From Halorussus salilacus (GTDB taxonomy: Archaea; Halobacteriota; Halobacteria; Halobacteriales; Haladaptataceae), in the NCBI RefSeq assembly GCF_024138125.1, contig NZ_CP099995.1, forward strand, positions 1-64,000: a DNA stretch of 64,000 nt, in the 5' to 3' direction. Made by a program: the position numbers and the translations under genes. Of the stretch, positions 9,470-45,615 are shown one piece after another (positions within the stretch are counted from its first letter, which is position 1; each line of letters begins with the position of its first letter). The notes under the pieces were generated by a model. The model searched no databases and had not been told where the DNA came from. It worked only from the letters and a program-made list of their open reading frames with translations.

Positions 9470-9569
9470 GAACTCGGGTCGTATTACGACTGAAAAGACC
9501 AAACTTGCTAAGCGCGAAGACTATTGGTTAATAATACATCTTCATCGTCATTCTGCGACCATAGGCCAG

Positions 9570-9612
9570 TTTTTCACCCCCTGAGGGGTGCGGGGGTGCT
9601 CAAACGAGTACC
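9570..9612 (+). promoter_or_regulatory. Stem-loop element E1 upstream of the DUF6166 gene
   Basis: T5 run, then stem CACCCCC (9575-9581), loop TGAGGGGTGC, stem GGGGGTG (9592-9598), followed by a second hairpin GGTGCTC/GAGTACC (9595-9601 with 9606-9612). It ends 28 bases before the gene start, counted from the first stem. This is the first of six elements with a conserved loop and covarying stems in 9570-14957. Confidence 0.75.
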
Positions 9613-10089: not shown

Positions 10090-10133
10090 TTTTTACCCTC
10101 GGGAGGGGTGCGAGGACCTTCCAATAGTCCTCG
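10090..10133 (+). promoter_or_regulatory. Stem-loop element E2
   Basis: T5 run at 10090-10094, stem CCTCG (10097-10101), loop GGAGGGGTG, stem CGAGG (10111-10115), then a second perfect hairpin CGAGGAC/GTCCTCG (10111-10117 with 10127-10133). The stem sequence differs from E1 yet remains paired. The downstream ATG is at 10144. Confidence 0.75.
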
Positions 10134-10462: not shown

Positions 10463-11128
10463 ATGTACGAAGTGTGCGGTGAGAAGGAACTCAAGGTCAT
10501 TCTCGCGCTTGACCCAGGGGATTCCATCTCCGGCGTCGCGCGGAAGATCGACGAGAACCGGGAGACGATTCGGCGCGTCGTGAATCGCCTCGAGGAGGCG
10601 GGATACGTCGTGTACGATGATGGCCTCCAGCTCGTCGACCAGACAATCCGAGACGCCGGTCTCGAGTTCCTGACGGCGGCAACAGACATCTCGCCGCCGT
10701 CGATCTCAGAGGCCTACGTCCTCCCGCAGTTCGCGGGTATGGAGTATGCATTCACTGCCATCGATGCGGTCTACGTCTGGACCCGCGGTGGCTACCAGGT
10801 CGCTCGCGACCCAGAGGACTATCCGCTGTTCATCGCCGTCCACGAATCCGAACTCGACGCCTGGACGGAGTTCTTCGATCGGTTCGGAATCCCGACTTCG
10901 GAAGAGCGCCAGCCCGCTGAAGACCTCGATGGTTCGATACAGGTGATCTTCGAGCCACGGTCACAAATCGATGCCGAGATGGTCGACGGACGGTCCGTCA
11001 TCCCACTCCAGGAAACCGTGGCGTTCGCAAATGAGTACTACGCAACCTTCGAGTCGGCACTCGACATGCTCGGACGGATGTACGACGACGTCGACACCGA
11101 CGCGAGCTACCGCATGGAGCCAGCCTGA
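10463..11128 (+). CDS. Winged-helix protein, putative antitoxin of a nucleotidyltransferase pair
   Basis: A 221-residue protein starting at the ATG 10463. The N-terminal 55 residues form a winged helix-turn-helix (ELKVILALDPGDSISGVARKI...IRRVVNRLEEAGYV), the pattern of ArsR/MarR-type regulators. The remainder is an acidic alpha/beta domain. The stop is two bases before the next ATG, so it is co-expressed with the nucleotidyltransferase at 11131. HTH plus nucleotidyltransferase pairs of this layout are annotated as type IV-like (AbiE-like) toxin-antitoxin modules; here the HTH partner is the likely antitoxin and autorepressor. It lacks the stem-loop element found before its neighbours. Confidence 0.75.
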   Translation: MYEVCGEKELKVILALDPGDSISGVARKIDENRETIRRVVNRLEEAGYVVYDDGLQLVDQTIRDAGLEFLTAATDISPPSISEAYVLPQFAGMEYAFTAIDAVYVWTRGGYQVARDPEDYPLFIAVHESELDAWTEFFDRFGIPTSEERQPAEDLDGSIQVIFEPRSQIDAEMVDGRSVIPLQETVAFANEYYATFESALDMLGRMYDDVDTDASYRMEPA

Positions 11129-11130
11129 AC

Positions 11131-11826
11131 ATGAGTCAAGAAGACCGAAGCGAGGCACTCATCGAAGTGCTCGAAGAACTGGAACAGTCAGATATTGGGT
11201 TCGTCCTCGTTGGTGGGTACGCGATCAGCCAGTTCGAGACGCGGTTCTCGACCGACCTCGACCTCGTCATCGCTCCGGACGACTACGACGAAGTCGTTGC
11301 GTTCCTTCAAGCGCACGGCTTCGAACGACAGGCCGATCTCGAAGTTCCCCCAGAAGAAACCATCTATAATCGGGAAATCGAACTCTTCGAGCGTACTGAA
11401 GGGCTTCCTCACCCGGTCGGAGTAGACATCCTTGTGAACGGCCTCGGCTGCCGACAGACCGAAGCAGAGTGGTCGTTCGACTATCTGCGCAAGCACAGTT
11501 CTCCGACGACGATTTCAGGCGGTACTCGGTCGACGACCGCACGGGCAGCTGACGGCGAAGTACTTGTTGCAGCCAAGCTTCATAGTGGTCGAAAAACGGA
11601 TCTCGCTGACGTCCTCGCTGCGGTTCCGTCGATCGACCTCGGAATGGTCGAGACGCATCTGCATCGCGGCGATACTGAAGCCCTTCGTCAACAGCTCAGT
11701 GAGGCACAAGCGTTCATCGAAGAGGGCGGACTCGATCACCGGTTCAAGAGTATGTTCGGTCAATCATCGGCCTCGGCCGAGGATATCGAGACGCTCCTCA
11801 AGTTCCTCAAGCAGCAACAGAAGTAA
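11131..11826 (+). CDS. Nucleotidyltransferase-fold protein, putative toxin (DUF6036-like)
   Basis: A 231-residue protein. The polymerase beta-type nucleotidyltransferase signature is seen as VLVGGYAISQ (about residues 26-35) followed by STDLDLVI with the metal-binding DxD pair. A later Asp in VGVDILVNGL is the likely third carboxylate. A helical C-terminal region follows (DLADVLAAV, ETLLKFLKQQQ). Such proteins act as toxins by transferring nucleotides to tRNA or protein in AbiEii/MenT-type systems; the target here is unknown. Located two bases after its presumed antitoxin. An inverted repeat CACCCAC/GTGGGTG at 11831-11869 follows the stop and may mark the transcript end. Confidence 0.75.
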   Translation: MSQEDRSEALIEVLEELEQSDIGFVLVGGYAISQFETRFSTDLDLVIAPDDYDEVVAFLQAHGFERQADLEVPPEETIYNREIELFERTEGLPHPVGVDILVNGLGCRQTEAEWSFDYLRKHSSPTTISGGTRSTTARAADGEVLVAAKLHSGRKTDLADVLAAVPSIDLGMVETHLHRGDTEALRQQLSEAQAFIEEGGLDHRFKSMFGQSSASAEDIETLLKFLKQQQK

Positions 11827-12191: not shown

Positions 12192-12235
12192 TTTTTTCGC
12201 CCCCGAAGGGGTGCGGGGGAATCGAACATACCCCC
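12192..12235 (+). promoter_or_regulatory. Stem-loop element E3
   Basis: T6 run, stem CCCCC (12200-12204), loop GAAGGGGTGC, stem GGGGG (12215-12219); the same G run can instead pair with CCCCC at 12231-12235 to make a second hairpin. The ATG of the next gene is at 12249. The loop is the consensus form of the six elements. Confidence 0.75.
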
Positions 12236-12733: not shown

Positions 12734-12775
12734 TTAACCAACATGACTCATCCGGTAGCAACCGGTGTTGGTTAA
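12734..12775. repeat. Inverted repeat A (TTAACCAACA ... TGTTGGTTAA)
   Basis: Ten-base arms TTAACCAACA (12734-12743) and TGTTGGTTAA (12766-12775) are perfect reverse complements around a 22-base spacer, which itself contains CCGGT/ACCGG. It lies 70 bases before the DUF6610 gene and just before element E4. The same arms recur at 15538 and 25773, so this is a dedicated site, probably an operator. Confidence 0.7.
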
Positions 12776-12795
12776 CGGCTAGCCGCCGGGAGCAG

Positions 12796-12834
12796 TTTTT
12801 CTCCCCCAGGAGGGGCGCGGGGAGAGTTCCCGCG
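12796..12834 (+). promoter_or_regulatory. Stem-loop element E4
   Basis: T5 run, stem CTCCCC (12801-12806), loop CAGGAGGGGCGC, stem GGGGAG (12819-12824), and an overlapping second hairpin CGCGGG/CCCGCG (12816-12821 with 12829-12834). The ATG follows at 12845. The CT/AG pair in the stem is compensatory relative to E1 and E6. Confidence 0.75.
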
Positions 12835-12844
12835 TTGATTCATT

Positions 12845-13846
12845 ATGGCACTCACAGCGAGGACGACCAGCAACGCAGCCAGCAAAATTGCAGCTGCTCG
12901 GCAGGCAGACCACGTGGCGTTCCTCCATCGAGTTCCGTTCGCATATGACGCGCGACGACTCGGCTTTCTTACAGGCTTTCGGGAGGACTGTACCTACCAA
13001 CAGCAGCAGTTCAAAGCGTTAGAGTTGCCAGTCGGGATGCTCGATAACGATTTTAGAAATCCAGACCTTGATCGGTACGTCGAGCGCTTTTTCGAGCACG
13101 AACCCCAGGTCGGGGTGATTGGTGATGCCTACGGAATCGACGAGGTGGACCGATACGTCGCTGCTGCTCGCGAGATCAAAGGAAGCTACCCAGAATCGAA
13201 CCTCGTCATCGTCCCCAAATGCCGTGGCGCGGTTCACGCGATCCCTGATGGCCTCGTCGTCGGGTACTCCCGGGGGTACGCCGACCGACTCGCTCACGAG
13301 TTCTCAGAGCCGAGCGATTGGCGTGGTCGTCGTGTCCACATACTTGGAGGAAGTCCGCCAAAACAACTGGACGTCATTAAGCAGCTCACCCGTCCCACGC
13401 TGACTGGAGACCCACCCGCAGATATCGTCGGTCTCGACTGGAATGGGCTTCACCGTGGCGCACAGTTCGGCGAGTTCTGGACAGCTAGTGGGTGGGACGA
13501 CAGCGGTCGCGACGCCGAGCACATGACGATCCGAAAAACCGTTCGGTGCAGTCTCGCGAAGGTTCGAGAATTCTGGCAGGCACGAGGTATATGGCCCGAA
13601 TCGACAACTCAGAAAGACAGCGTCGAGTTCGAGTATCGCGGCCCGTCACCGAGTGATATCGAGAGTGCAGCGTGTACTGAGTGCGATGTGAACATTTGGA
13701 CGACTGAACGAGGTCCCTTCGTAGCAGAGTACGATACGGGAGAGATCTGTGGATACTGTAGCTACGACTGCTACTTCACGCATCGGCAGCAGAACCAGCT
13801 CGAAGAGCTAGCCGGCGAACAAAGCGTCTACTTCCCGCCAGCCTGA
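12845..13846 (+). CDS. DUF6610 family protein with C-terminal zinc-finger
   Basis: A 333-residue protein. The middle part has VIGDAYGIDEVDRYVAAAREI, LVIVPKCRGAVHAIPDG, VVGYSRGYAD and VHILGGSPPKQLDVIKQL, then DIVGLDWNGLHRGAQFG: an alpha/beta enzyme-like core typical of the DUF6610 family, which is also found in phages. The C-terminus adds Cys pairs CTEC and CGYCSYDC followed by FTHRQQNQ, a probable zinc site. The reaction is unknown; the GGSP and DWN patterns suggest a nucleotide- or base-handling enzyme but this is a guess. Preceded by inverted repeat A and element E4. Confidence 0.7.
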   Translation: MALTARTTSNAASKIAAARQADHVAFLHRVPFAYDARRLGFLTGFREDCTYQQQQFKALELPVGMLDNDFRNPDLDRYVERFFEHEPQVGVIGDAYGIDEVDRYVAAAREIKGSYPESNLVIVPKCRGAVHAIPDGLVVGYSRGYADRLAHEFSEPSDWRGRRVHILGGSPPKQLDVIKQLTRPTLTGDPPADIVGLDWNGLHRGAQFGEFWTASGWDDSGRDAEHMTIRKTVRCSLAKVREFWQARGIWPESTTQKDSVEFEYRGPSPSDIESAACTECDVNIWTTERGPFVAEYDTGEICGYCSYDCYFTHRQQNQLEELAGEQSVYFPPA

Positions 13847-13859
13847 GCAGCGAGCTGTC

Positions 13860-13900
13860 TTTTGCGCCCCGAAGGGGTGCGGCGCGTTCTGAATCGGCGC
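13860..13900 (+). promoter_or_regulatory. Stem-loop element E5 before the ArdC gene
   Basis: T4 run, stem GCGCC (13864-13868), loop CCGAAGGGGTGC, stem GGCGC (13881-13885). Compared with E1 and E6 the stem bases change on both sides and pairing is kept. A weaker second pairing GCGC/GCGC reaches 13900. The ArdC ATG is at 13929. Confidence 0.75.
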
Positions 13901-13928
13901 AGTTGCGATAATTTAAGTCCTGAAAACC

Positions 13929-14855
13929 ATGGCTACGAGTAGTGATTCGTCGGTCTCGTTCGAGGAGACCGACACCCGACACGACGAGATGCACAGTACC
14001 ATCGAAGAGTGGATCGACGACCTCGTCGACCGCGTCGACGATGCACAAGCAAGTGAGGAGTTCCAGGAGTGGTTAGATGTCCAGAGTCGCTTCCACGACT
14101 ATTCGCACCGAAATACGCTCCTCATCAAACTCCAGTATCCAGAGGCAACGAAGGTCGCGGGCTACAACACGTGGCGAAACGACTTCGATCGGCACGTCCA
14201 GGAAGGCGAACAGGCCATCTGGATCTGGGCCCCGATCATCACCAAGCGATGTCCCGAGTGTGAGAATTCGCCCAGCTACCACGAGAAAATCGGCTGTGAG
14301 TACAACGAGACGTCGACGGATGAGTGGTCAAAAGGCCTCGTCGGGTTCAAACCAGCACCAGTCTTCGACGTGTCCCAGACCGACGGAGAACCGCTTCCCG
14401 AACTGGAGACGGCAGCGATGGGCGACGCCGACGACCTGGTGCCAGCGCTCAAAAGAGCAGCTGACGAACTCGGTGTGACGGTACGCATTGTCGATGCTGA
14501 CGACTGGGACTATGGCGACGCGAAGGGAGTCTGTAAGTACCGGAGCCTACACGACCTCCAGCCAGTCGTCGAAGCGATAGCCCGATCGAACCAAGCAGAT
14601 CTCGCTGTCACGCTGATCCATGAGTACGCCCACGCGTTGCTCCACTTCGATATCGAAGATGAACCCGAACGGGCAAAGCGCGAGGTCGAAGCAGAAGCCG
14701 TCGCGTACATTGTCGGTCGGTGTTTCGGACTTGACACGAGCGGATCTGCATTCTATCTCGCTGCGTGGCAGGGCGATGACTCAGAAGCAATTCAAGAGCG
14801 CCTCGGTCGAATCAGTTCGACTGCTCAGGAGATCATTGGGTCACTCGTGGAGTAA
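13929..14855 (+). CDS. ardC: ArdC-like anti-restriction protein (ssDNA-binding plus zincin)
   Basis: A 308-residue protein. The N-terminal part (IEEWIDDLVDRVDDAQASEEFQEWLD...YSHRNTLLI) and the segment KPAPVFDVSQTDGEPLP match the ArdC single-strand-DNA-binding domain; it also has CPEC and a further Cys. The C-terminal part is a zincin-like peptidase with HEYAH (near residue 231) and a downstream E-x-E-A-x-A-Y helix that would give the third ligand. ArdC proteins protect incoming plasmid DNA from restriction in the recipient during conjugation. Preceded by element E5. This is the strongest functional clue for the array 9626-15916. Confidence 0.85.
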   Translation: MATSSDSSVSFEETDTRHDEMHSTIEEWIDDLVDRVDDAQASEEFQEWLDVQSRFHDYSHRNTLLIKLQYPEATKVAGYNTWRNDFDRHVQEGEQAIWIWAPIITKRCPECENSPSYHEKIGCEYNETSTDEWSKGLVGFKPAPVFDVSQTDGEPLPELETAAMGDADDLVPALKRAADELGVTVRIVDADDWDYGDAKGVCKYRSLHDLQPVVEAIARSNQADLAVTLIHEYAHALLHFDIEDEPERAKREVEAEAVAYIVGRCFGLDTSGSAFYLAAWQGDDSEAIQERLGRISSTAQEIIGSLVE

Positions 14856-14927
14856 CGATTCAGACAACTTCTGGAACTCGTAACAGTCGAAACTAATCGA
14901 GTGAAGTTCCGGATGCGTTGAAAACGG

Positions 14928-14957
14928 TTTTTCACGCCATCGAAGGGCGACGGCGTG
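14928..14957 (+). promoter_or_regulatory. Stem-loop element E6
   Basis: T5 run, stem CACGCC (14933-14938), loop ATCGAAGGGCGAC, stem GGCGTG (14952-14957). This is the most diverged copy, with GGGCGAC in place of GGGGTGC, but the T run, stem and loop core GAAGGG are kept. The next ATG is at 14990. Confidence 0.65.
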
Positions 14958-14989
14958 CGCGAACTCGTCACGTCGATTCAGCCGAAATC

Positions 14990-15541
14990 ATGACCGAACG
15001 AACTGACGACGTCGAGACACGGAGCGAAGATGAAACAGAACACGAAGAGCGAGTGTACTCTCCTGATGGTGGAGTTGTAACATCGACTCCTGCAGCTTCG
15101 CCACCTACTGAAGCGATCCAACAACCCACCATTGGCGAAGACCCGTCTCAGGAGGAACTCGAGCCTCGCACAAAGCGAGCTCGAAACGAAGAGATGGACG
15201 TCTCGCTACTCCAGAAGGGAGGAATCTACGAGGTGCGATCGGCGTCAGGGAACATCTACGAGGTCGACATCGCGAGTGAGACGTGTACGTGTCCAGATTT
15301 CAAAAAGCGGAATCCAAGCGGTGGGTGTAAGCATCTACGACGAGCCGATCTCGAAATTCGGGGAGGGAACGCCCCTCGTCCAGATGGCCGTCTCCCGGAA
15401 ACGACGGACGTGGTCGAACAACTTGCAACGGAGATTCGCGAGCTGGACCAAGAGATCGAAGAACGCGAGGACCGTCGGCAGAAGCTCGAAGCCACGGTGG
15501 CGGTTATCGAGGAAGTCTCGTTGAGTAGACGAGAAAATTAA
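14990..15541 (+). CDS. SWIM zinc-finger protein with C-terminal coiled coil
   Basis: A 183-residue protein starting at the ATG 14990 downstream of element E6. An acidic, probably disordered N-terminus is followed by a SWIM finger: C99-T-C101, then CKHL about 15 residues later (CxC...CxH), embedded in IYEVDIASETCTCPDF. The last 50 residues form a heptad-rich coiled coil (VEQLATEIRELDQEIEEREDRRQKLEATVAVI). SWIM fingers mediate DNA or protein contacts, for example in recombination accessory proteins. The stop codon lies inside the left arm of inverted repeat B. Confidence 0.8.
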   Translation: MTERTDDVETRSEDETEHEERVYSPDGGVVTSTPAASPPTEAIQQPTIGEDPSQEELEPRTKRARNEEMDVSLLQKGGIYEVRSASGNIYEVDIASETCTCPDFKKRNPSGGCKHLRRADLEIRGGNAPRPDGRLPETTDVVEQLATEIRELDQEIEEREDRRQKLEATVAVIEEVSLSRREN

Positions 15542-15579
15542 CCAACAATTCTAAGATATTGCCCAACAACGTTGGTTAA
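15538..15579. repeat. Inverted repeat B (TTAACCAACA ... CGTTGGTTAA)
   Basis: Arms at 15538-15547 and 15570-15579 with a 22-base spacer, the same total length as repeat A, one mismatch in the innermost base. It overlaps the SWIM gene stop and ends 14 bases before the next ATG, so a bound protein would block the start region of the 15593 gene. Confidence 0.7.
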
Positions 15580-15592
15580 CAGAACCTGTCCA

Positions 15593-15916
15593 ATGTCCTA
15601 TTCTCCACCAGACCCACCTCGAAAAGTCCCAGCAGACATCGCTTCGAAGCTGGATGAGCAATCCCCGGAGGTACTCCGACAAGTCGCTCGATTCGCAGAG
15701 GAGCTTGCTGAGCATCGCGAGCGGGAGGCACGACTAGCTGAGAACGAGGAGGATAAGGAGGTCGAAGAGCGACCAGAGGATCTTCCTGATGACGTTCCGG
15801 CGAAGGCGACGATCACAATCAAGGAGATCAACGACAACCGCTACTACTACTGGCAGTGGCGGGAAGGAGATTCGGTGACGTCGAAGTACAAAGGGCCGGT
15901 GAATCCCGACGAGTAG
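15593..15916 (+). CDS. DUF6788-like small protein
   Basis: A 107-residue protein from the ATG at 15593; a GTG at 15572 would lie inside inverted repeat B. The N-terminal part is a helical, Glu/Arg-rich segment (SPEVLRQVARFAEELAEHREREARLAE) and the C-terminus is a small beta domain, IKEINDNRYYYWQWREGDSVTSKYKGPV, as in DUF6788-type proteins, which show the same aromatic YYY.W.REG...SKY.GP pattern. Function unknown. Last gene of the + strand array and the closest to the origin. Confidence 0.7.
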   Translation: MSYSPPDPPRKVPADIASKLDEQSPEVLRQVARFAEELAEHREREARLAENEEDKEVEERPEDLPDDVPAKATITIKEINDNRYYYWQWREGDSVTSKYKGPVNPDE

Positions 15917-15972
15917 ACGAGATTGAATGTAGCCTGAAGTTTGTTACAGCACGATTCCTAGCGTAGCAGATG

Positions 15973-16134
15973 ACACCCCCCAGAGTGTGAATGGGATCGG
16001 TTCACCCACACCCCTCGGTGTGAATGGGCTATCAACCGCCACTCTCTAACGAGACTTCACGCCGAGAGAAGGCAGAGCAACACGTGGATAGATTACGCCT
16101 CGTCTACCCCCACACCCCTCAGTGTGAATGGTCC
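15973..16134 (+). repeat. Origin iterons 1-3
   Basis: Three direct copies of ACACCCCTCGGTGTGAATGG-type iterons at 15973-15997, 16008-16030 and 16112-16134. Each holds a short palindrome (ACACC ... GGTGT) followed by the constant GTGAATGG. A related but different pair, TCACGCCG..AGAGA, occurs at 16058 and 16181. The iterons recur in the orc1 upstream region, marking this as the initiator-binding part of an origin. Confidence 0.8.
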
Positions 16135-16208
16135 ACCACCCAGGGTACCGCGATTAAGAAGTCCTTAACAACAGAAGCCCTCACGCCGTAGAGAGGGTTC
16201 TCGCCTCA

Positions 16209-16232
16209 GTGTCGAAGCTTCGGCTTCGGCAC
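16209..16232 (+). other. Ten-base-pair hairpin with C(UUCG)G tetraloop
   Basis: GTGTCGAAGC pairs with GCTTCGGCAC around TTCG, giving ten pairs (one T-G) closed by the exceptionally stable cUUCGg loop if transcribed from the + strand. A second short hairpin AAGG/CCTT follows at 16234-16246. It lies between the iteron group and orc1 and could be a structured RNA, a replication-control element or a transcript end; there is no T run. Confidence 0.5.
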
Positions 16233-16451
16233 AAGGCCTCGCCTTTCAGAATACGTCTACTCGGAGGGCTGTTTAGACTGTAGTATAATAAAGATAACTA
16301 AAACTGCGGTGCGGTGTCGTAGCGGACCAGGTCAGTTACCATGGCAGAACGTGTAAGCCGCTCTTCGTGCCGTAATAGGTTCTTCAGACGAACGAGACAG
16401 CTTCTACAGCTCGAGTCCAGCTCTGTCTCTACAACCGTCGTAGCCTATGGG

Positions 16452-16473
16452 GGACCATTCACACCGAGGGGTG
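16452..16473 (-). repeat. Origin iteron 4, inverted
   Basis: The reverse complement of the iteron (ACCATTCACACCGAGGGGTG) lies just beyond the orc1 stop, facing iterons 1-3. Sequence identity to iteron 3 extends through the GGTCC end. Confidence 0.75.
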
Positions 16474-16479
16474 GGGGTG

Positions 16480-17748
16480 TCACCATCCCATCAACGTCTG
16501 GAGTTCCGGCGTTGAGTTGATCAGTCCAGTTCGTGTACTCTCGACGTCTCCTTGGAGCGAATACGATCTGAACTTACCCTGATCTCCGCCTTCCTTCTTT
16601 TTGGATTCCAGAACGCCTGTCGTCACGTGTTTGTTCAGAAGCTCAAGCGCGCGATTGTACCCCTTGGGCTCGACTTCGACATCCCGTGCTACTGTTTGGT
16701 AGACCTCGTGAATCTCTGACGTCCGGAACCATTCTTTCTCCGGGTTATTCCGGTCAAGACGTGTGAGAGCAAACAGGAGTAATTTACCGGACAACGGAGT
16801 CCCTTTCACCATCTCCATAAAGAGCTCAACTTCAACGAGTTCGTCAGCTTCGAAAACGTGCTCCGCTGTCACGACGTCGTCGCCTTCTTCGTCAGCGATC
16901 TCGCCTGCATTCCGGAACAATCGGACTGCGCGTCGAGCGTCACCGTGTTCTTCAGCTGCGAGTTCAGCTGTTGTTGGAATCACTTCGTCATCGAGGACAC
17001 CGTCGTAAAATGCGTCTCGTCGATTTTCGAGGATTGCGATAAGCTGATCTTCTTCGTACGGTGTGAACGTTCGGTGTTCTGGCTGGAGAGTCGATTGAAC
17101 CCGTGACTCGATTTCTCCTTTGAATTCGATGTCGTTCGAAATTCCGATTGTAACGACTGGGAAGTCAACGTCGTCTTTTGACTGTGCCCGTGAAAGCGTG
17201 TAGAGTACTTCGTTGACTTCTCCATGCTTGTCGATCTCATCGATAATGACGACGAGACCGCCAGAGAACTCCCTCTGAACAACGGGCCACAACTTCTGAT
17301 CCCGATAATGTTCTGCTGAGAGGCCCTGATAGGGGACGTCGAGCGGGTTTTCTGCTTTCGCGTTCACCTGCTCTGCGATCTTTCGGAAGGTGGAGGTATA
17401 CGTGGAGATGGGATCCGGATTAATGTACGCAGTAACGATCGGGGACTCCGTCCCTTCAGTTGCTGCCTCGAGTCGCTCACAGACGTGTCTGGCAACTAGC
17501 GTCTTCCCCGTCCCGGTTTCACCCCACTCCAGGACGTTATCCGGGACGCTATTTGTCCGCATTTTCCGGAGATTCTTCGCCAAGAACGTGATGTGACCGT
17601 CCCGACCGACGATCCGATTGGCGTCAGGAACGTTATCGATCTCGAGCAACCACGGTTTCTCAAAAATGTCCGATCCGTCTTCGCTATCTCCTTCATCGAC
17701 GTTTAAGATCTCGTCGACGGTTGTTTGCGTGGAATCGTTGTTTGGCAT
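16480..17748 (-). CDS. orc1/cdc6: Orc1/Cdc6-type replication initiator
   Basis: A 422-residue AAA+ protein that binds and opens the adjacent origin. Walker A GETGTGKT at residues 76-83, Walker B VVIIDEIDK near 165, sensor 1 GISND, sensor 2 region EEHGDARRAVRL, and a C-terminal winged helix (LLFALTRLDRNN...TSEIHEVYQTVARDV). The ATG at 17748 is chosen over one at 17769 because a TATA motif at 17771-17780 is centred 27 bases before it; a leaderless start is usual here. The iterons before and after the gene are its likely binding sites, and a half iteron overlaps the promoter, so autoregulation is likely. Confidence 0.92.
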   Translation of the reverse strand: MPNNDSTQTTVDEILNVDEGDSEDGSDIFEKPWLLEIDNVPDANRIVGRDGHITFLAKNLRKMRTNSVPDNVLEWGETGTGKTLVARHVCERLEAATEGTESPIVTAYINPDPISTYTSTFRKIAEQVNAKAENPLDVPYQGLSAEHYRDQKLWPVVQREFSGGLVVIIDEIDKHGEVNEVLYTLSRAQSKDDVDFPVVTIGISNDIEFKGEIESRVQSTLQPEHRTFTPYEEDQLIAILENRRDAFYDGVLDDEVIPTTAELAAEEHGDARRAVRLFRNAGEIADEEGDDVVTAEHVFEADELVEVELFMEMVKGTPLSGKLLLFALTRLDRNNPEKEWFRTSEIHEVYQTVARDVEVEPKGYNRALELLNKHVTTGVLESKKKEGGDQGKFRSYSLQGDVESTRTGLINSTPELQTLMGW

Positions 17749-17763
17749 GGACGGACCAATTCG

Positions 17764-17872
17764 CCCCATTCACATATAGGTTATCCACCCTCGGTGTGAT
17801 TGATTCCCCCCCCCCATTCACACTCCGGGGGGTGCTCCGCTTCAGCAAGACCCCCCGGAGTGTGAATGGGAT
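17764..17872. repeat. Origin iterons on the orc1 5' side
   Basis: A half iteron CCCCATTCAC (17764-17773, inverted), a degenerate direct copy (17786-17805), and a pair of perfect inverted copies at 17813-17834 and 17850-17872 that form a large palindrome (CCCATTCACACTCCGGGGGG against its complement). A run of ten C residues (17806-17815) separates them. These mirror the iterons at 15973-16473. Confidence 0.8.
17771..17780 (-). promoter_or_regulatory. orc1 TATA box
   Basis: On the minus strand the sequence reads CCTATATGTG, centred 27 bases before the ATG at 17748. It abuts the half iteron at 17764-17773. Confidence 0.55.
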
Positions 17873-18220
17873 TGACCCTGTCGCCCACTTCTGTTTTTGC
17901 TCACCTCTGGTGATACCTGTCCTTCGGGCAAGGTACCATCGCCGACCCACTCTTGGAAACTGGAATAATTCGATAGAGGTCCGCTATCGACATCTCATGG
18001 CAAATCATCCATTCTGGGTCGCTATGAACTCTACTAGCTTTACCTCTCTTGTCTTGGCGAGTCTTCATCGAATATCTGTTCGGTTCCATCCGAGCGGTGA
18101 CAGCACACTCTCGACAGCTCTGACGAGATGGGCCTCGTAGTACGAGGCGTCGTAGGTCCCCCTTTGGATTCCATATAATCGAATGATACGGTCGAATGGG
18201 TACCAGCGACGCTTGACACC
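17873..18220. other. Intergenic region, origin to defence gene
   Basis: About 350 bases beyond the last iteron. Open frames here are short and lack haloarchaeal codon bias. I see no repeat, RNA gene or mobile-element end. It lies 3' of the large minus-strand gene that ends at 18221 and 5' of orc1. Confidence 0.4.
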
Positions 18221-21200
18221 TCAGCCTTGGAAGGCCGATGATCGGTCATCCGAACGTCGATTGATCCGGAGGACAATGCCGTCGTGTGTGAACCCCTGGA
18301 CGTCGAGCTCGTCGAGGAGTGCTGGGAGTTCGTCGAGGTGACCGTTCAGATTGATGGCCGATTCGTCCGGGAGCACCCCGACGAGTCGCCAGTCGCCCCG
18401 ATACCGCCACGCCTCTTCGGGATTGGATTGTAGGCACACACGGCGATAGACCGAGATCTGGTTCGCACTGAGATGGACATTACTCACGGGACCACCGGAG
18501 AGCGCCTTCGCCTCATATCTGACTGGTCGGAACCCGCTGTCGTCATGTGCGAGTCCAACGAGATCGAACCCAGCGCCATCCCATACACGAGAGATGTGTA
18601 ATCCCCGGGCCAGTGCTGAGTCATCGTCAGTCGCTCGCCATTTGTTCCATGCCTCACGGACCGACGACCGGGTGGCTCCTTCGGGGAACGGTGAGAGAAG
18701 GGCCTCTCTGGCCGCCTCGAAGGACTCTGGGCTATCGGCGTTTTCTAATGCGGAGAGGGTTTCGTCACGGACGCAGTCCAGCAGCGCCACTTCTGCCTCG
18801 TCACCGACTATCTTCTGAGCCTTGTGCTTCCGCGCCATCTCCTGTCGGTCGAACGTTCCGTTATCGTTCGGATGGCTATCCAGACCCTCTGGCCCATCTC
18901 GAGTCCATCCTGCATCGCTCGCGTCTTCGATCTTCGAGATTGGTTTGTAGCGTGGCGAGAAACGCCGAATTTCGTCGCTCAGGACCTCCGGATCGGGAAT
19001 CTTCGAGGCTGGAATCGAAGCGGTGTAATCCGCGTTGGATAGCCAGCGGACGACCGCCCGAGATTGGTCGAACGTGAGTCGATGGACGGCGGAGTCGATG
19101 AACTTTTCGAGGGACTGCTTGACGGTCTCTTCGTCTGCATCCTCTACCCCGTTCGACGAGACGAGATTGACCAGATACGACACCAGTCGTGGTTGTTGAT
19201 CGTCGAACCAGCGCTGCCACCGGAGGCGATGCTCGTGGGAGCATGAGAATCGGGGCCTGAATCGATCTTGTTCCTCGGTGAGGTCGAGCTCCTTGAACCG
19301 TTGGTTGATTTCTACATCGCGCACATCGTCGGAACACTCGCCCATCCCGATATCCGATGGTCCGAGCGAGGACAGCTGGGTGGGAGATTCGATAGAGGGG
19401 TCGAGTGTGAGATCGAACTCCCCCAGCACATCTCTGGTCGCATCGAACAGATTTCGTTTAGCGGCCTCGTCTAGCGGGTAGAGCAGCTGGGCGTACTGAC
19501 TCACGAGAGGTCCGGCATCTTTCCGATCGACGAATCGGTCGAGACGGTCGACACCATCATGGTCGTACTCAGTCAGGGCCCGCTCGAAGAGGATACCGAC
19601 CTGACGTTGATCTTCGAACAGGAGGTCCGCGAGGGCCTCACCGAACGGTGTCAGGTCGTGTGATGGCTCGCCCAGAGCACCATCGAACACGATGGTGGGG
19701 GCGTCTGTGTCCACGAAGAACGCATAGCTATCCTCGCCTCTGTATCGTTCCTCGGAGTCAAGCTCCCGTCTGTCCGCGGAGAGAGTGTACTCCACCCATG
19801 CGTCTTCGACCTGCTGGAACCGACCATTGTGCCATCTGTCGATGATGTCGTCGTCTATATCGAGACGTCTGACGGCCTCGCTCAGCGCCAAGAGACGTGG
19901 GAGCAATCGCTCAATCGCCTCCTGTTTCTCGGTGGCCCTATCGTCGGTATCCCCGTCGGTTTCGTCAAATCGGACGTGACGGTTGACGGTGAGGAGGCGG
20001 GATTGCAACGGCGACGAGTCGTTGACGGACTGGCTCGGTAGTACCGCGGTGACGAGGGGGACTGAGTGGAAGATCCGACGCATCTGATCGCGGTCGTCGG
20101 AGTTCGTGATGATGTAGGCGGGCTCGTCAGAAAGTTGTCGCCATTCGAGGGGACGTTCGTGCAGCCCTGTGGACGTCTCTGCGGGATTATACGTCAACAA
20201 CGGTAGGGGATCGGTCCTTGATTCAGCCGAATCGTTGGAGACGATGGCCTGGAGGACTCGCTCGTACAGCCCGATGAGTGCATCGCGAGCGGAGGAGTCG
20301 ACCTCGACACTGGTCAAGTCGAGGTTTTGGAGACGGTCGGCGAGTCTGCGTGCGGGGGCCGCATCTTGCTTCTCGAGGGTTCCCTCGGATATTCCATCGA
20401 GCGCCCCGAGCGTCGTCAGGATCTCTTTGTACTCCGACCCCTGGTCGACACTCCACAGGACGCGCTTTCGCCCGTACGAGCGCGTTGGGAGCACGACCAC
20501 GTCACGGGGAGCGACCCCGGCAGGGGCATCAGAGAGGTATCGTGGAGGTTCCGCGTGTCCGGTCGGGTCCTCCGTCGATTCGGAGCCGCTCTGGACGGGG
20601 AACCATGGTCGTTTGGCGAGCGGTGGGACCAGATTCGTCGACGCCCTCGACGAATCTTCCTCATCTCTTCGTTCGGTGATCTCCTGCTCGATGAGGTCAG
20701 ACAACCAGACGTCCCAGGCGTCTGCAATCGAGACCAACCACGCATCGGACGGGCGGTCATCGTCGAACGACCCGTCCGAGAGCTGTGGCATCGTCGGGGC
20801 GCTGGGCCGTGTCTCCGCGGGGACGATGGTCGGCGGGATGGCTCGCGCATCGACGATGGCGTCTTGTCCACCTTCGATGAGGGTCAGTGGGATGCCTCCC
20901 TCGGGAGGTTCCGGCCCACAACCTAGGAACAGCAGGAATGATTCGACATCGAGGGATGGCGGGAGGTCGCCGAGTCTGTCGATGTCGACCTGGTCGATGG
21001 TGAGTTGACGGGCGGGCGCCCATAGTGTACCCTCGACGGGTAAATGGAGTGTCGCAATCGATCGGCCCGCCCGTTGTTCGGTACCGCTTGAGTCTCCGGA
21101 TAGGAATCGCCACCCCATCCCGTATCCGTCGCTCTCTCCGAACGGGTCGGTCTGGTAGCGTTCGTAGAGGAACAGCTCCGCCGCGTATCCGATTAGTTCG

Positions 21201-23143
21201 CGCTGGAGGGTCGCTGCTCGGTCGGCATCCTCCGCCAATGGCTGGTGATTGAAACGGGCAGGGGAGTTCCGAAGCTGGCGGATCTCGGAGAGCAACTGCA
21301 CAGGATTGAACGACCGTTCTCCGAGCGACGAGCTATCGCCGCCGACGAACAACGAGGGGAACTCGAATGTCGTCACAGAACAACCTGCTTCTCGCAAACT
21401 GGTGGGGAGGGGAAGCGGACGGTCGTCTTCGTCGTCCCTGACGAACAGGACCCGATCGCTCTTCTCGGTCTCCCAGACCTCACGGCCCGATTGGGTCGTC
21501 GGGAGCGGGACCCGAACCGATTCTTCATCCTCGCTCTCGACCGGGATGATCGGTGTCTCTCGCTCGCGGAGTGCGTCGCACAGGGCATCGGCGTACTTTC
21601 CGAGCGTCACCGTCCCGCAGCCCTTTCCGCAGTGATGGTCCAACCACGCCCTGGACACCCGCCAGAATCGATCGCATTCGTCGGTCTGGACGCTGTCCTG
21701 GGTTTGGAAGTACTGGTCGGCTAGCTCCGCCCAGAGCTCGTATGACTCCTGGGCCTTCATATCGTCGCCGAAGAGGAGTGCTGCGAGGTGCTCTTCGATT
21801 CTCCGAGCAGGGATTCCGCTTGCCCCAGGGTCGAGGAGTGACCAGAAGTCGCGGCGGATGGTATCGTTATCTTGTCCCTCGACGCGGTCGACGTCTTCGG
21901 GGTCGATTCTCGTCCACTCGACGGTACTCAGTGGGGCCCCAACCTCCTCGAGGAGTTCGAGGAGATGGAGCTCGGCTCCAGCCTCGAGGAGCGCTTGGTT
22001 GTACCGACCGACGCTATCGTCCTCGACGGTCAGTCCTTTGCGATCTGGCTGCAGGAGGAAATCGCCATTGAAATCGACTCCGAACGGTGCATCCAGTTCC
22101 GTCGGGAGGTAGCCGTAGAGCTGCCCCTCGACATCTCTAGCATCTGACCCAGGCCAGCTGATTGCAGCACCGGGGTTCGAGAGGTCGTAGTCGGCTTCTG
22201 CAGCTTCCTCTGCGAGCGATGTCGACGAGTGACGCTCCGATCTCCAGTACGCCATCGACCGCCCGGAATCCTCGCTCCACGTTCCGTCGGTCGGCCAGGT
22301 TCGACGCTCGAAACAGCGGTCCGACGTCTCGGCTCTCACGGTTAGTCCGCGGCTGTGTTCGAGCAGCCCGGCGAAGTGGAGATGGCTCTCGTTGAGGTTC
22401 TCCATCATCTTCGAGACCTCGTCCATCCGCTCCGTGGGAATCGGGACTACGACGGCGGTGGTGACCTCTCCGTCGGGTATCGGTGACGGTCGTCCCTCGC
22501 TCATTAGCGGGAGCGGGAAGTGATAGCTCGGGCGTGTACCGATGTCCGAGTAGGTGGGATCAGTTGTCTCGAGGAACCTCTCGTGACCCCGCCGTACGTC
22601 GGGGTAGTCGAGGCGCTCGCTCCAAATCTCGTCGTCCAAGTGCGAGTGGAGTTCCATTCCCCACCAGCCATCCTCGTGTCGGCTCCAGACACGAACCCAG
22701 TCGTTCAACCAGAAGACCGATCGGAACCCGACTCCCTTGTTCCCGACGCTCTCGTCGGGTGATTTGTTCGACAGGTGGACCGAGCAGAGCGCATTGAAGT
22801 CTGGTCGGTGGGCCTCTTCCGGTGGGTCACGGTAATCGAACTCGGGGTCGACTGAGATAGGAAGTCCGTCGTTCGTGACGACGAGTGCATAGGAGCTGGC
22901 TGAGGTCGGCGTCTCGACGACGTTAACGGTGATTTCTGCATCCGCTCTGTCGAGCGCATTCTGGAGCAGTTCGAAGACGACACGGCCAGCGTGTGCACGA
23001 CGAACGCCCTGTTCGTCGCCATGTTGTACCCGAGCGCTCTCTCCGCGTTGGCTCTCGTAGTAACAATGATGCTTCTTGAAGATGGTCTTGAGAGCACTCG
23101 GTGCGGGGTAGGTTTCATCCCGTTCGGACACATCCATGCTCAT
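18221..23143 (-). CDS. Sacsin-like GHKL ATPase with C-terminal DUF3883 domain
   Basis: A 1640-residue soluble protein. The N-terminus is a histidine-kinase/Hsp90-type (GHKL) ATPase: N box ELLQNALDRAD (58-68), G1 region VVTNDGLPI (88-96), and G2 region GNKGVGFRSV (134-143), the sacsin/NO VEIN subtype. A very long middle part has no recognised fold. The last about 130 residues, with GAGFDLVGLA...VRYEAKALSGG...NVHLSANQ, match DUF3883, a PD-(D/E)XK-like domain (Asp then ExK). This architecture is found in prokaryotic defence islands; restriction of invading DNA after ATP-driven sensing is an inference. It lies with a GmrSD-like gene beside the origin. No TATA motif was obvious before the start. 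Confidence 0.8.
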   Translation of the reverse strand: MSMDVSERDETYPAPSALKTIFKKHHCYYESQRGESARVQHGDEQGVRRAHAGRVVFELLQNALDRADAEITVNVVETPTSASSYALVVTNDGLPISVDPEFDYRDPPEEAHRPDFNALCSVHLSNKSPDESVGNKGVGFRSVFWLNDWVRVWSRHEDGWWGMELHSHLDDEIWSERLDYPDVRRGHERFLETTDPTYSDIGTRPSYHFPLPLMSEGRPSPIPDGEVTTAVVVPIPTERMDEVSKMMENLNESHLHFAGLLEHSRGLTVRAETSDRCFERRTWPTDGTWSEDSGRSMAYWRSERHSSTSLAEEAAEADYDLSNPGAAISWPGSDARDVEGQLYGYLPTELDAPFGVDFNGDFLLQPDRKGLTVEDDSVGRYNQALLEAGAELHLLELLEEVGAPLSTVEWTRIDPEDVDRVEGQDNDTIRRDFWSLLDPGASGIPARRIEEHLAALLFGDDMKAQESYELWAELADQYFQTQDSVQTDECDRFWRVSRAWLDHHCGKGCGTVTLGKYADALCDALRERETPIIPVESEDEESVRVPLPTTQSGREVWETEKSDRVLFVRDDEDDRPLPLPTSLREAGCSVTTFEFPSLFVGGDSSSLGERSFNPVQLLSEIRQLRNSPARFNHQPLAEDADRAATLQRELIGYAAELFLYERYQTDPFGESDGYGMGWRFLSGDSSGTEQRAGRSIATLHLPVEGTLWAPARQLTIDQVDIDRLGDLPPSLDVESFLLFLGCGPEPPEGGIPLTLIEGGQDAIVDARAIPPTIVPAETRPSAPTMPQLSDGSFDDDRPSDAWLVSIADAWDVWLSDLIEQEITERRDEEDSSRASTNLVPPLAKRPWFPVQSGSESTEDPTGHAEPPRYLSDAPAGVAPRDVVVLPTRSYGRKRVLWSVDQGSEYKEILTTLGALDGISEGTLEKQDAAPARRLADRLQNLDLTSVEVDSSARDALIGLYERVLQAIVSNDSAESRTDPLPLLTYNPAETSTGLHERPLEWRQLSDEPAYIITNSDDRDQMRRIFHSVPLVTAVLPSQSVNDSSPLQSRLLTVNRHVRFDETDGDTDDRATEKQEAIERLLPRLLALSEAVRRLDIDDDIIDRWHNGRFQQVEDAWVEYTLSADRRELDSEERYRGEDSYAFFVDTDAPTIVFDGALGEPSHDLTPFGEALADLLFEDQRQVGILFERALTEYDHDGVDRLDRFVDRKDAGPLVSQYAQLLYPLDEAAKRNLFDATRDVLGEFDLTLDPSIESPTQLSSLGPSDIGMGECSDDVRDVEINQRFKELDLTEEQDRFRPRFSCSHEHRLRWQRWFDDQQPRLVSYLVNLVSSNGVEDADEETVKQSLEKFIDSAVHRLTFDQSRAVVRWLSNADYTASIPASKIPDPEVLSDEIRRFSPRYKPISKIEDASDAGWTRDGPEGLDSHPNDNGTFDRQEMARKHKAQKIVGDEAEVALLDCVRDETLSALENADSPESFEAAREALLSPFPEGATRSSVREAWNKWRATDDDSALARGLHISRVWDGAGFDLVGLAHDDSGFRPVRYEAKALSGGPVSNVHLSANQISVYRRVCLQSNPEEAWRYRGDWRLVGVLPDESAINLNGHLDELPALLDELDVQGFTHDGIVLRINRRSDDRSSAFQG

Positions 23144-23443
23144 CGGCGAAGCTGAGTGCTCAGGTCCTTCCCTAGAGTACTGAGTTTGGCGTGATCAGCG
23201 CTTGATTGCCATCCCTCGAACAATGTCATAGACTTTGTGACGGTGCACTCTCATTTCATGCTTGGCATCATGGGGCACTTGACTAGACTGACTTCGGTAC
23301 AGCCTCAAACTCGACAGAGGTAGCAGAACAGCCAGGAAGGGATATGAACCAAATCGCCGCCCTGTTGGAGCGAACCGTTGTGATGGACGACAACTCAATT
23401 GGAATCTCGTACGAATCCTCACATTTCGGGATCGAGTGATTAT
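23144..23443. other. Intergenic region between two defence-type genes
   Basis: Exactly 300 bases, AT-richer than the flanking genes; contains the promoter of the large GHKL gene and the 3' end region of the DUF262 gene. I see no gene, repeat or RNA element. Confidence 0.4.
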
Positions 23444-25357
23444 TCACTTGACGTACTTGTCAATCAGGTAGTCGGTGATCTGCTCTTCGCGAGCCTGGAT
23501 AAACACCTGTGCGTTCTCCGGCGTAGGTTCGACATCGGGGTACTGATTTACCCGTTGGATACGCTCAGCCTCGGCGTTGCCGAGATCATCCAACCAGTCG
23601 TGGGGCCACTGGTCGCTTTTGATCTCTTCGTTCATCTCGTGTGGCAACAGCTGTAGATTCCCGATTCGATCAAGATCAACAGTCTCTCCAATAGATTCAG
23701 ATACAGTCTCTTCCCTGCTTTTCGGGTAGATGTGGTCAACCGAGTAATCGCCAATACTGGCAGACATCGATTGCGTATACGATTCCTCAATGAGCCCGAG
23801 TACTGCCGTGACATCCGTGTCGGTAAATACAGGTTCTCCCGGGCTGCTCTCGTAACGAGCGTTGGCTACGACTCGACGGATGTCTTCAGCGGAGGGGCTG
23901 ATGTTCTCCGATTCAAATAGCTCCTCCCCTGGAAACACGATGGGCTCGTTGGGTTCTGGTTCCCATTCGCGAAGGTATCGCATCCAGTTGCGGCACTTGC
24001 CGTAGGTCAGAACCTGGTAGTACTTGTTCAGCAAAAGGGCTCTTGCGACGAACTGGAAAACACTCTCGCGGTTCGCGTCAGAGACCTCAGCATCCGGATT
24101 CTGGTAATAAAACACGCCAAGTAGTGCGAAGATCGGCATCGTGTTCATCACCGAGCTCCGAATCCCGCTCTCGATTACTGTCTGGAAAGCCTTCTCAAGC
24201 GATGTCCGAAACCACTCGAAGCGCCGACCGGCGACGACGGGCTCATTATACAGCCACCGCTTGCGTATTTCGTCCATTTTGTCTTCATCGATACTGCTAA
24301 GATTGCTACGGAGAAGATCTGTTCCCACCAAATATGCTGTATACCGGAGGAACAGTTTCCTATCGATTTCCTGCTCGTACTGAGGGAACTTCTGTTTAAA
24401 TTCGTCAATCCAATCTTGGATCACCTCCCTTGGATTGATTCGATCGCTCTCCTCTTCCGCGTACGGCCAATAACTCATTAGCTTTGAGAGAAGGAGCTGG
24501 TAGGGCTTCGGATCAGAACCCTCCATGTTCAGCCGAGTGAATATTTCCGGAATTTCGGCTCTGTCTTTGCTCGTGCTGTCGGTTTCGAGATCGTCCTGTA
24601 GAACGTTGCTCGTGATATCTCTCGCGACGGCCATCGAAATACTGCGTAGTTGATATCGGGTTTCGTTATCCGCCCTCAACTCGGCGGTGTCAACGTATCC
24701 ATCGACGACGTCGCTCAGCGCTCTCCCCTCCAGTACTGTGGAGTTCCCGCTTGCACCCTCATCATCTCCGTTCCATAACTCTCCGACCGGCATCCAGAGG
24801 TGCCGCGTATCGCCAGTCATAGAATAGCCGGTCTCGTCAGTTCCTCCGAACTTCCCCGTTGATTTGAACTCGAACTGGTAGTCGCCTGCCGTGTCATCGC
24901 GGTCGTACTCCGGATGACCGAATAGGTCCACACACAGCCGTCGTCCTTCCCAATACTGAAGCTGGTCGCTAGGTTGCCCCCGTCCTTCGTTGTATACTGC
25001 AATCCCACCCTCCACACCGATATAGAGTGAATTCAACCGCTGTTGACCGTCAATAATCAATATCTCTGGTTCTTTGTCCTCCACCTCTTGATTGTAGAGG
25101 TCGTATTCCGCCAAAACTGGATCCGGCGGCCGGTAGTCGTCGGCGACATACATCTGCAGAAAATTGTACGAGTTGTAGTCACTGATATTGGCCGCACGAA
25201 CTCGCCACTCAGTGACGGCCCCAATCGGATAGTCTCGAATTAGTGAATCGAACAGTTCCTCGATTTGGCCCGGGTTCCAGACAAACTCTCGCTGGAGCCC
25301 TGGGAGGAAGATGTGATCGTTTATTTCAGACAAATAATCAGAGACCTGTCTGGACAT
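23444..25357 (-). CDS. DUF262/HNH protein (GmrSD-like type IV restriction)
   Basis: A 637-residue protein. The N-terminal DUF262 domain shows LPGLQREFVWNPGQIEELFDSL and IIDGQQRLNSLY; the DGQQR motif is the nucleotide-hydrolysing ParB-like site of GmrS. The C-terminal part has the DUF1524-type HNH motif VDHIYPKS followed by IGNLQLLP, the nuclease of GmrD. The single-chain fusion is the common form of GmrSD, BrxU and SspE-type enzymes, which cut modified DNA. The ATG at 25357 is favoured over 25363 because a TATA motif lies 27 bases upstream. Base composition is slightly lower in GC than neighbours. Next to another defence-type gene. Target modification unknown. Confidence 0.85.
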   Translation of the reverse strand: MSRQVSDYLSEINDHIFLPGLQREFVWNPGQIEELFDSLIRDYPIGAVTEWRVRAANISDYNSYNFLQMYVADDYRPPDPVLAEYDLYNQEVEDKEPEILIIDGQQRLNSLYIGVEGGIAVYNEGRGQPSDQLQYWEGRRLCVDLFGHPEYDRDDTAGDYQFEFKSTGKFGGTDETGYSMTGDTRHLWMPVGELWNGDDEGASGNSTVLEGRALSDVVDGYVDTAELRADNETRYQLRSISMAVARDITSNVLQDDLETDSTSKDRAEIPEIFTRLNMEGSDPKPYQLLLSKLMSYWPYAEEESDRINPREVIQDWIDEFKQKFPQYEQEIDRKLFLRYTAYLVGTDLLRSNLSSIDEDKMDEIRKRWLYNEPVVAGRRFEWFRTSLEKAFQTVIESGIRSSVMNTMPIFALLGVFYYQNPDAEVSDANRESVFQFVARALLLNKYYQVLTYGKCRNWMRYLREWEPEPNEPIVFPGEELFESENISPSAEDIRRVVANARYESSPGEPVFTDTDVTAVLGLIEESYTQSMSASIGDYSVDHIYPKSREETVSESIGETVDLDRIGNLQLLPHEMNEEIKSDQWPHDWLDDLGNAEAERIQRVNQYPDVEPTPENAQVFIQAREEQITDYLIDKYVK

Positions 25358-25380
25358 AGTCATCAGGACGCAAGATGGGT

Positions 25381-25388
25381 ATTTATAC
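25381..25388 (-). promoter_or_regulatory. TATA box of the DUF262 gene
   Basis: GTATAAAT on the minus strand, centred 27 bases before the ATG at 25357, a classic leaderless haloarchaeal arrangement. Confidence 0.6.
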
Positions 25389-25772
25389 TCTGTCGTCGGT
25401 CCCCAAATTCCACAAAGGAGTTACTGCTCTGCATTCAATTCGAGTCCGAGACTAACCTTTCGGAGCCGGCCTCCCCGTGTGCGATATGATAAGCTGATTG
25501 TCGAGGTTTACGCCCTGGTCGAGATCTCACTTCGCACAGGCAGCAAGATATTGTAGAGATGTTTGCCGTGGTACCTACCTATCAGGACTTACTCGCCGGA
25601 CCGGAGTTGGCTAACAGGCTACTCGTCGACGCGATTGAACAGCTGCTCTTCTTGTTGGCGATACAACTGACTGCGAACTATGAGAGATTTTAGAGACCGT
25701 AAATGACTCTGACCTCTCTGAAGGCCGTCGTACTGCTGGAAAAACGGCCGACAGTTTTCCCTCCTGCCTCGA
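25389..25772. other. Gene-free stretch between divergent genes
   Basis: About 380 bases between the DUF262 promoter and inverted repeat C. A frame at about 25591-25690 reads like a short helical remnant (ELANRLLVDAIEQLLFLLAIQL) without a start and may be a gene relic; otherwise nothing recognisable. Confidence 0.35.
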
Positions 25773-25812
25773 TTAACCAACATTCGACGCTGTAGCACTT
25801 CTTGTTGGTTAA
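25773..25812. repeat. Inverted repeat C (TTAACCAACA ... TGTTGGTTAA)
   Basis: Perfect ten-base arms at 25773-25782 and 25803-25812 with a 20-base spacer unrelated to those of repeats A and B. It lies 94 bases before the start of the membrane gene at 25907, more than 10 kb from the other copies. Confidence 0.7.
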
Positions 25813-25874
25813 CTTAACGACTTTTGACTTACGCTAGTCACTCAATTCTAACTTTGGGATGTTCTTACCCGAAT

Positions 25875-45021: not shown

Positions 45022-45615
45022 CTAGTTCGCCTGTCTCTGTTGTAAGTCGTCGCTCGGGTAGATGCGATACGTCCGCCCTTGGCGCTCGCGGTACAGGAGG
45101 CCGCGTTTCTCGAGAGCGCTCACCGTCTGGCTCACCTTGCTCTTCGAAAAGTCAGAGCGATCCCGTACTTCGATCTGTGTGATGCCGGGCGAGGAGATGA
45201 CTGGTTCGAGGATACGGCGTTCATCATCCGGCAAGAGGTCTAACACACGAGCCTGTGGCTGAGACTCTGGATTGATAGCCCCGTCTGGTTGGGTGGTTCC
45301 CTCCGGCGATTCGTCACCCTCCGGATCGGTCGGATTCGCCATTTCATTCTGTGAGCGGTCGGTTACGTCTATGCTGGTGATCTCATCCCGAATCACGAGA
45401 TACCCCCCACCGATGACAGCCGAGACGAGGAAGGTTCCGAGGACGTACCAGAGTGGATTCGTTCCGTGAACGGACCCCATCGACGTGCCCATCATCGATC
45501 CCATCTGGTCGAAGGCCTGCTGTTGCTGATATGCTTGCCAGCTGAGCACACCGCCGACGACGAGGACGGCGGCGACCAAGCCACCGACTACTGTATCTGC
45601 TCGCCGTCGATTCAT
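45022..45615 (-). CDS. Membrane-anchored MarR-type winged-helix regulator
   Basis: A 197-residue protein from the ATG at 45615. Two N-terminal membrane helices (TVVGGLVAAVLVVGGVLSW; WYVLGTFLVSAVIGGGYLV) flank a Met/Ser/Gly-rich outside loop (FDQMGSMMGTSMGSVHG); an acidic linker leads to a cytoplasmic winged helix (RRILEPVISSPGITQIEVRDRSDFSKSKVSQTVSALEKRGLLYRERQGRTYRIY). The Met-rich loop between the helices may sense copper outside and signal to DNA through the wHTH; this is inference. It lies between copper-binding protein and permease genes. Confidence 0.8.
   Translation of the reverse strand: MNRRRADTVVGGLVAAVLVVGGVLSWQAYQQQQAFDQMGSMMGTSMGSVHGTNPLWYVLGTFLVSAVIGGGYLVIRDEITSIDVTDRSQNEMANPTDPEGDESPEGTTQPDGAINPESQPQARVLDLLPDDERRILEPVISSPGITQIEVRDRSDFSKSKVSQTVSALEKRGLLYRERQGRTYRIYPSDDLQQRQAN

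Follow-up and report, generated by a model that had tools for sequence, protein, structure and literature searches.

The first 64,000 nucleotides of contig NZ_CP099995.1 of the haloarchaeon Halorussus salilacus (the window, part of a 158.5-kb plasmid, contig C3) contain three widely spaced inverted repeats. Site 1 (12734–12775) has the perfect arms TTAACCAACA-N22-TGTTGGTTAA and is followed, 69 bp downstream, by the start of a DUF6610 gene (12845–13846, plus strand). Site 2 (15538–15579, TTAACCAACA-N22-CGTTGGTTAA) carries an A>G change in its right arm, at the inner base. It overlaps the end of a gene for a SWIM-like protein (14990–15541, plus strand), the stop codon of which falls within the left arm, and lies 13 bp upstream of the gene for a small protein (15593–15916, plus strand) that we propose as the binder of these repeats. 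Site 3 (25773–25812, TTAACCAACA-N20-TGTTGGTTAA) again has perfect arms and lies 5' of a membrane-protein gene with in-frame ATG codons at 25859 and 25907. Since a TATA-like element is located ~30 bp before the second ATG and follows the first, 25907 is the likely start, which places site 3 at a distance of ~94 bp and not 46 bp. These positions, the single deviation in site 2 and the spacers of 22, 22 and 20 bp confirm a preliminary description of this DNA. Its count of three copies holds for the window, while the total is larger, with four further one-mismatch copies beyond the window on the same plasmid and one on a 58.8-kb plasmid. A degenerate relative that it placed at 9498–9531 proved to be one near-perfect half-site (9522–9531) with no partner arm, which a scan allowing three mismatches did not return. 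Allowing no more than one mismatch, the window has eight half-sites, compared to 0.99 expected from shuffled sequences, and none of 100 shuffles reached eight. Within the 3.6-Mb genome, the 10-base arm is confined to contigs C3 and C4 and never occurs on the other two contigs.

The protein encoded at 15593–15916 has 107 amino acids and consists of an N-terminal coiled-coil helix, an acidic disordered linker and a C-terminal three-stranded beta domain, KATITIKEINDNRYYYWQWREGDSVTSKYKGPV. In an AlphaFold2 model, a long helix (residues 25–53) is followed by the disordered acidic stretch and by strands at residues 73–79, 82–91 and 94–99. Around 163 unique sites, a protein of ~107 amino acids is the most consistent product of the first downstream gene, and the distance from the arm to its start codon is typically 14 bp (23 site-adjacent loci). 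Among named haloarchaeal loci that were retrieved separately, and selected because they contain a site, all 16 family members have a perfect inverted repeat 9–20 bp upstream. No Pfam or NCBIfam model, including those of ParB/KorB families, matches the protein. Its C-terminal motif YYxWxxREGxKVxSKYxG resembles DUF6788 proteins; the earlier label "DUF6788-like" is hence apt as a statement of resemblance and not as a family assignment, and no paper naming DUF6788 was found in the open-access literature searched. A profile of the protein finds a haloarchaeal relative of the C..C..HGPY type. In a further subtype of homologues (EPQDGYEYAYWQWRS; loci L177, L178 and L179), CCCACA/TGTGGG arms are located ~8 bp apart just before the start codon; their half-site is similar to that of the type II proteins described below, with a shorter spacer.

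The arms with a spaced partner, which the preliminary description had proposed to look for in related replicons, are widespread. The exact pair TTAACCAACA-N16-26-TGTTGGTTAA is present in 260 of 392 genomes of the class Halobacteria, covering 67 of 86 genera with up to 30 copies per genome, while the reversed pattern, used as a control, gave no match in any of the 392 genomes. The carriers are plasmids, integrated elements and haloviruses. In IMG/VR, 50 stretches hold the pair, among them halovirus ChaoS9 (NC_054953), with sites at 33055–33096 and 45387–45427. A search of one genome per species over 84,980 species returned, among the matches listed, 79 haloarchaeal loci and a single bacterial one. 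All papers listed by an open-access literature search for the arm sequences were unrelated, and the arms are not mentioned in the ChaoS9 paper or in papers on haloarchaeal origins. The spaced repeats are real and extremely conserved, and are predicted to be protein-binding sites.

The presence of sites closely follows that of the small protein. A strong homologue (E<1e-40) was found in 50 of 60 site-bearing and in only 1 of 60 site-free genomes (p=4e-22); none of the 37 genomes with at least four sites lacked one. For comparison, the neighbouring gene DUF6610 was found in 14 of 30 site-bearing and 3 of 30 site-free genomes. As the binder gene itself carries a site, this co-occurrence is partly automatic and therefore supportive rather than decisive. 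In addition, the arm sequence tracks the protein subtype with no crossing: TTAACCAACA arms accompany type I proteins in 32 of 34 loci, TTACCCCACR arms type II proteins in 10 of 10, and CTAACCAACA arms type III proteins in 2 of 2, where types were assigned by short sequence motifs picked after the sequences had been seen, and where most loci were selected for having sites and part of the set (L150–L189) by protein match instead. The two type I exceptions are a site with a 1-nt deletion and one split by an insertion sequence on plasmid pNRC200. The type II arms are dispersed as well, occurring in 48 of the 392 genomes with up to 12 copies and none for the reversed control. On pNRC200 of Halobacterium salinarum NRC-1 (L149, 14382–15910), the insertion is ~1.5 kb long, has inverted ends CAGTCGATCACATCG and separates the two arms upstream of the binder homologue VNG_RS11815; in this laboratory strain, the predicted operator is thus naturally disrupted.

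The one bacterial locus, from the metagenome-assembled genome (MAG) of 'Candidatus Tritonobacter lacicola', shows the same arrangement. Its only two exact pairs, each with a 20-bp spacer, precede a gene encoding the same domain, at distances of 11 and 89 bp. The bacterial and haloarchaeal domains share 33% identity over 36 residues (hhalign E=1.3e-5), and predicted strands of 7, 10 and 6 residues with the same turns are found in both proteins. No bacterial homologues were found among viral contigs, and a weak match on a bacterial plasmid (Subdoligranulum) gave no readable homologue or inverted repeat. The bacterial cluster (L314, 3940–5987) comprises the domain protein, a nucleotidyltransferase (NTP_transf_8, PF12281) and a helix-turn-helix (HTH) gene, with the two inverted repeats at its front, and may be a toxin-antitoxin-like cassette under the control of the domain protein.

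The preliminary description located its three copies in promoter regions, but in general the sites do not qualify as promoter elements. The genes flanking 110 unique intergenic sites are oriented as at random intergenic positions (convergent 15.5% vs 15.5%, divergent 24.5% vs 25.6% in the background), and some sites are found at the 3' ends of genes, such as that of orc1 in ChaoS9. Positions within genes are rare (6 of 116 sites), and sites are enriched directly 3' of stop codons. Of 113 sites other than those of the binder's own gene that have a downstream start codon, 6 lie at 0–40 bp from it and 40 at 41–99 bp; gene calls came from a home-made caller based on codon usage, which leaves the starts, and some of the small genes, uncertain. 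As the shortest distances are avoided and the intermediate ones favoured, the sites keep off the core promoters of other genes, fitting into the gap that separates the promoter from the gene before it. The own-gene pair spans about -15 to -55, core promoter included. For DUF6610 homologues elsewhere, the site is located 72–81 bp upstream, similar to site 1, and in 16 viruses examined sites are often found 58–68 bp 5' of orc1, at the orc1 3' end, or 5' of parA. Another recurrent element, TTTTYNCCCCNNGAGGGGYGCGGGG, which could form a GC-rich hairpin, occurs shortly 5' of start codons at 9570–9595, 10090–10115, 12193–12218 and 12797–12822 (all plus strand), i.e. four matches on this plasmid vs 0.01 expected, with looser copies near 13860 and 14925; in other plasmids it is often located between the inverted repeat and its gene.

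Taken together, the inverted repeats are probably specific DNA-binding sites of the small plasmid-encoded protein, in the window the product of 15593–15916, which would repress its own gene and act through the dispersed sites as a regulator or organiser of the whole replicon. The binder is most likely a previously undescribed protein, with its own gene beginning just 3' of one of the sites. The C-terminal beta domain would read one half-site, (T/c)TAACCAAC(A/g), while the coiled-coil region may pair two subunits; with the half-sites about three helical turns apart, the disordered linker could tolerate spacings of 20–23 bp. Judging from the position of the site, the protein bound at its own promoter would shut the gene off in a negative feedback, and at the dispersed sites, which lie next to the backbone genes orc1/cdc6, polB, TFIIB and DUF6610, it may act on such genes in the manner of KorB or StbA. 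For site 2 and the gene that follows it, the earlier suggestion of an operator for a replicon-encoded regulator is thus well supported, with the 15593–15916 protein as the most likely regulator and not the HTH gene at 10463, which nothing ties to the sites. The SWIM-type protein was also considered as the binder and set aside, since three of the annotated plasmids do not have it next to the proposed binder gene.

Comparable systems are known from bacterial plasmids. The operators of KorB on RK2 (IncP-1) are dispersed, some 4–10 bp and others 45 to >1000 bp upstream of promoters, and replication and transfer genes are regulated (PMC11790492). Judged by position, the present sites share with those of KorB/ParB regulators the dispersal over the plasmid combined with one site at the regulator's own gene, and as for KorB and its operator OB the protein is plasmid-encoded, with binding here predicted from the positions. 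In contrast, KorB is a ParB-family cytidine triphosphate (CTP) clamp that recognises a 16-bp site, whereas here a protein of ~107 amino acids with a small beta domain is paired with two 10-bp arms 20–23 bp apart; CTP-binding or HTH domains of the ParB/KorB type are absent from its Pfam and NCBIfam matches. StbA of R388 (IncW) is a small stability protein that acts in trans and binds the stbDR repeats, which are located at its own operon and also at other plasmid promoters (PMC3098194). It resembles the present protein in its size and in having sites both at its own gene and elsewhere on the plasmid, but binds tandem direct 9-bp repeats, TTGCATCAT, in place of a single wide inverted pair on archaeal plasmids and viruses. 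Homology to StbA is not indicated by Pfam or NCBIfam, where the protein has no match of any kind; the two proteins were not compared pairwise. We favour a behaviour comparable to that of KorB and StbA by a protein that belongs to neither family.

Several observations weigh against this assignment. Ten of the 60 site-bearing genomes, with 1–3 sites each, lack a strong homologue, and a recognisable homologue was present in only 2 of 42 viral records with sites. Replicons without the binder gene may hold several sites (four on contig C4 of genome G385), the gene being located elsewhere in those genomes. Some sites are located away from promoters, with ~15% of the total lying between convergent genes. 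The bacterial case is a single MAG contig. Confidence in the AlphaFold2 model is moderate (predicted local distance difference test, pLDDT, 74; predicted template-modelling score, pTM, 0.35), and no significant match to a solved structure in the PDB was obtained for the beta domain. Chromosomal relatives from several genera (EIGGTEYYYYQWREGDEIRS; L157, L170–L176, L181 and L182) have no spaced inverted repeat upstream.

Some of the neighbourhood would also fit a function in plasmid segregation. The binder gene is arranged tail-to-tail with the orc1/cdc6 replication initiator gene (16480–17769, minus strand), and between them lie three copies of a repeat, CACMCCCCNNNGTGTGAATGG, resembling the origin recognition boxes (ORBs), at 15975–16134, with more at 16455, 17788, 17814 and 17850. 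The same tail-to-tail layout is found in four annotated plasmids from four genera, at an identical distance in three of them, where polB adjoins. By this layout and the intervening repeats, the binder gene is part of the origin module of the replicon, and its conserved distance from orc1 also counts in favour of the regulator reading. Short repeats near orc1 genes are known from haloarchaea as ORBs (PMC3528665), and the inverted repeats resemble them in that position; unlike ORBs, they are scattered over the replicon, and their arms are unrelated to the ORB-like repeats of this origin. Genes recurring next to sites are orc1/cdc6, TFIIB, polB and DUF6610, with Cdc6 genes enriched (14 vs 5.3 expected, p=2e-4, against background genes from the same loci), and in 2 of the 16 viruses a site lies just 5' of a ParA gene. 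The inverted repeats could accordingly be centromere-like partition sites for a ParB-type adaptor, holding plasmid copies for segregation. This explanation survives best among the alternatives and is nonetheless unlikely: the sites are scattered rather than clustered, and in the four annotated plasmids no ParA gene is found beside the binder gene, the neighbours being orc1, polB and others. A simple centromere role is further disfavoured because plasmids that coexist in a single cell carry identical sites along with near-identical proteins, for which incompatibility would be expected.

Alternatively, the repeats may be read by another factor, host-encoded or common to plasmids and viruses, with the small protein as merely one of the targets. 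The viral records and the ten genomes without a strong homologue would fit such a factor, as would SWIM-type proteins, which recur near sites and are found in 9 of the 16 viruses. We regard it as less likely again, since the arm sequence follows the subtype of the small protein, site presence and absence track it closely, and the domain and the inverted repeat are the elements seen together in the bacterial case. A role as site-specific recombination or cassette-boundary sites is very improbable. Plasmid homology does often break at an inverted repeat, but most of this signal can be traced to a single gene family that has the repeat as its promoter; a crossover would fall in the spacer, which shows no conservation, and the sites hold register with particular downstream genes. 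Nor do the arms form the ends of insertion sequences or miniature inverted-repeat transposable elements, since almost every copy has them 20–23 bp apart and the spacers are unrelated; together with the scarcity of sites inside genes, this leaves neither of the outcomes that the preliminary description had named as speaking against a regulatory element.

The way in which the sites vary also bears on whether they are read as DNA or as RNA. All DNA retrieved contained 314 unique perfect sites. Deviations were found nearly exclusively at arm positions 1 and 10, and spacers are mostly 21–22 bp within the range of 20–23 bp, with few outliers of 17, 19 and 24 bp. One-sided deviations (n=41) are dominated by A>G at arm position 10 (31 cases), the commonest tolerated change everywhere, by which site 2 is a normal variant; among symmetric deviations (n=7), four are T>C at arm position 1. 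RNA hairpins acting as terminators or leaders, suggested by those repeats that directly follow stop codons, are the least probable explanation, as the excess of one-sided deviations at particular positions fits protein reading of DNA better than an RNA stem, the loop would be 20–23 nt long, and sites occur on both sides of genes.

Two further features of the window are of note. The winged-HTH-like gene at 10463–11128 is directly followed by a nucleotidyltransferase gene at 11131–11826 (both plus strand; NTP_transf_5, with a weak AbiEii match), and the two are possibly a toxin-antitoxin-like pair. The protein encoded at 13929–14855 (plus strand) weakly matches the N-terminal domain of ArdC, an anti-restriction factor, and ArdC-like is also the annotation given to its homologues from the same plasmid cluster.

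As most site-bearing viruses and some plasmids carry sites without the gene, an action of the small protein in trans is suggested. We tentatively consider that the protein of one plasmid may act on other plasmids and on haloviruses, where the site without the protein is often found 58–68 bp 5' of the viral orc1; such a shared signalling layer would let viruses sense, or make them depend on, resident plasmids, and the beta domain would be an unrecognised sequence-specific DNA-binding domain common to archaea and bacteria. The more probable assignment, a replicon-wide regulator or organiser with autorepression, predicts what an unannotated protein found on haloarchaeal plasmids throughout the class does, namely bind DNA sequence-specifically at a stated target, and marks its likely binding sites in hundreds of genomes. 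If it is correct, plasmid-wide control of the KorB/StbA type exists in archaea through an unrelated protein, and the protein-site pairs would serve as orthogonal operators in haloarchaeal genetics. In that case, the viruses in which the site occurs without the protein would also suggest regulatory signals that are common to plasmids and viruses.

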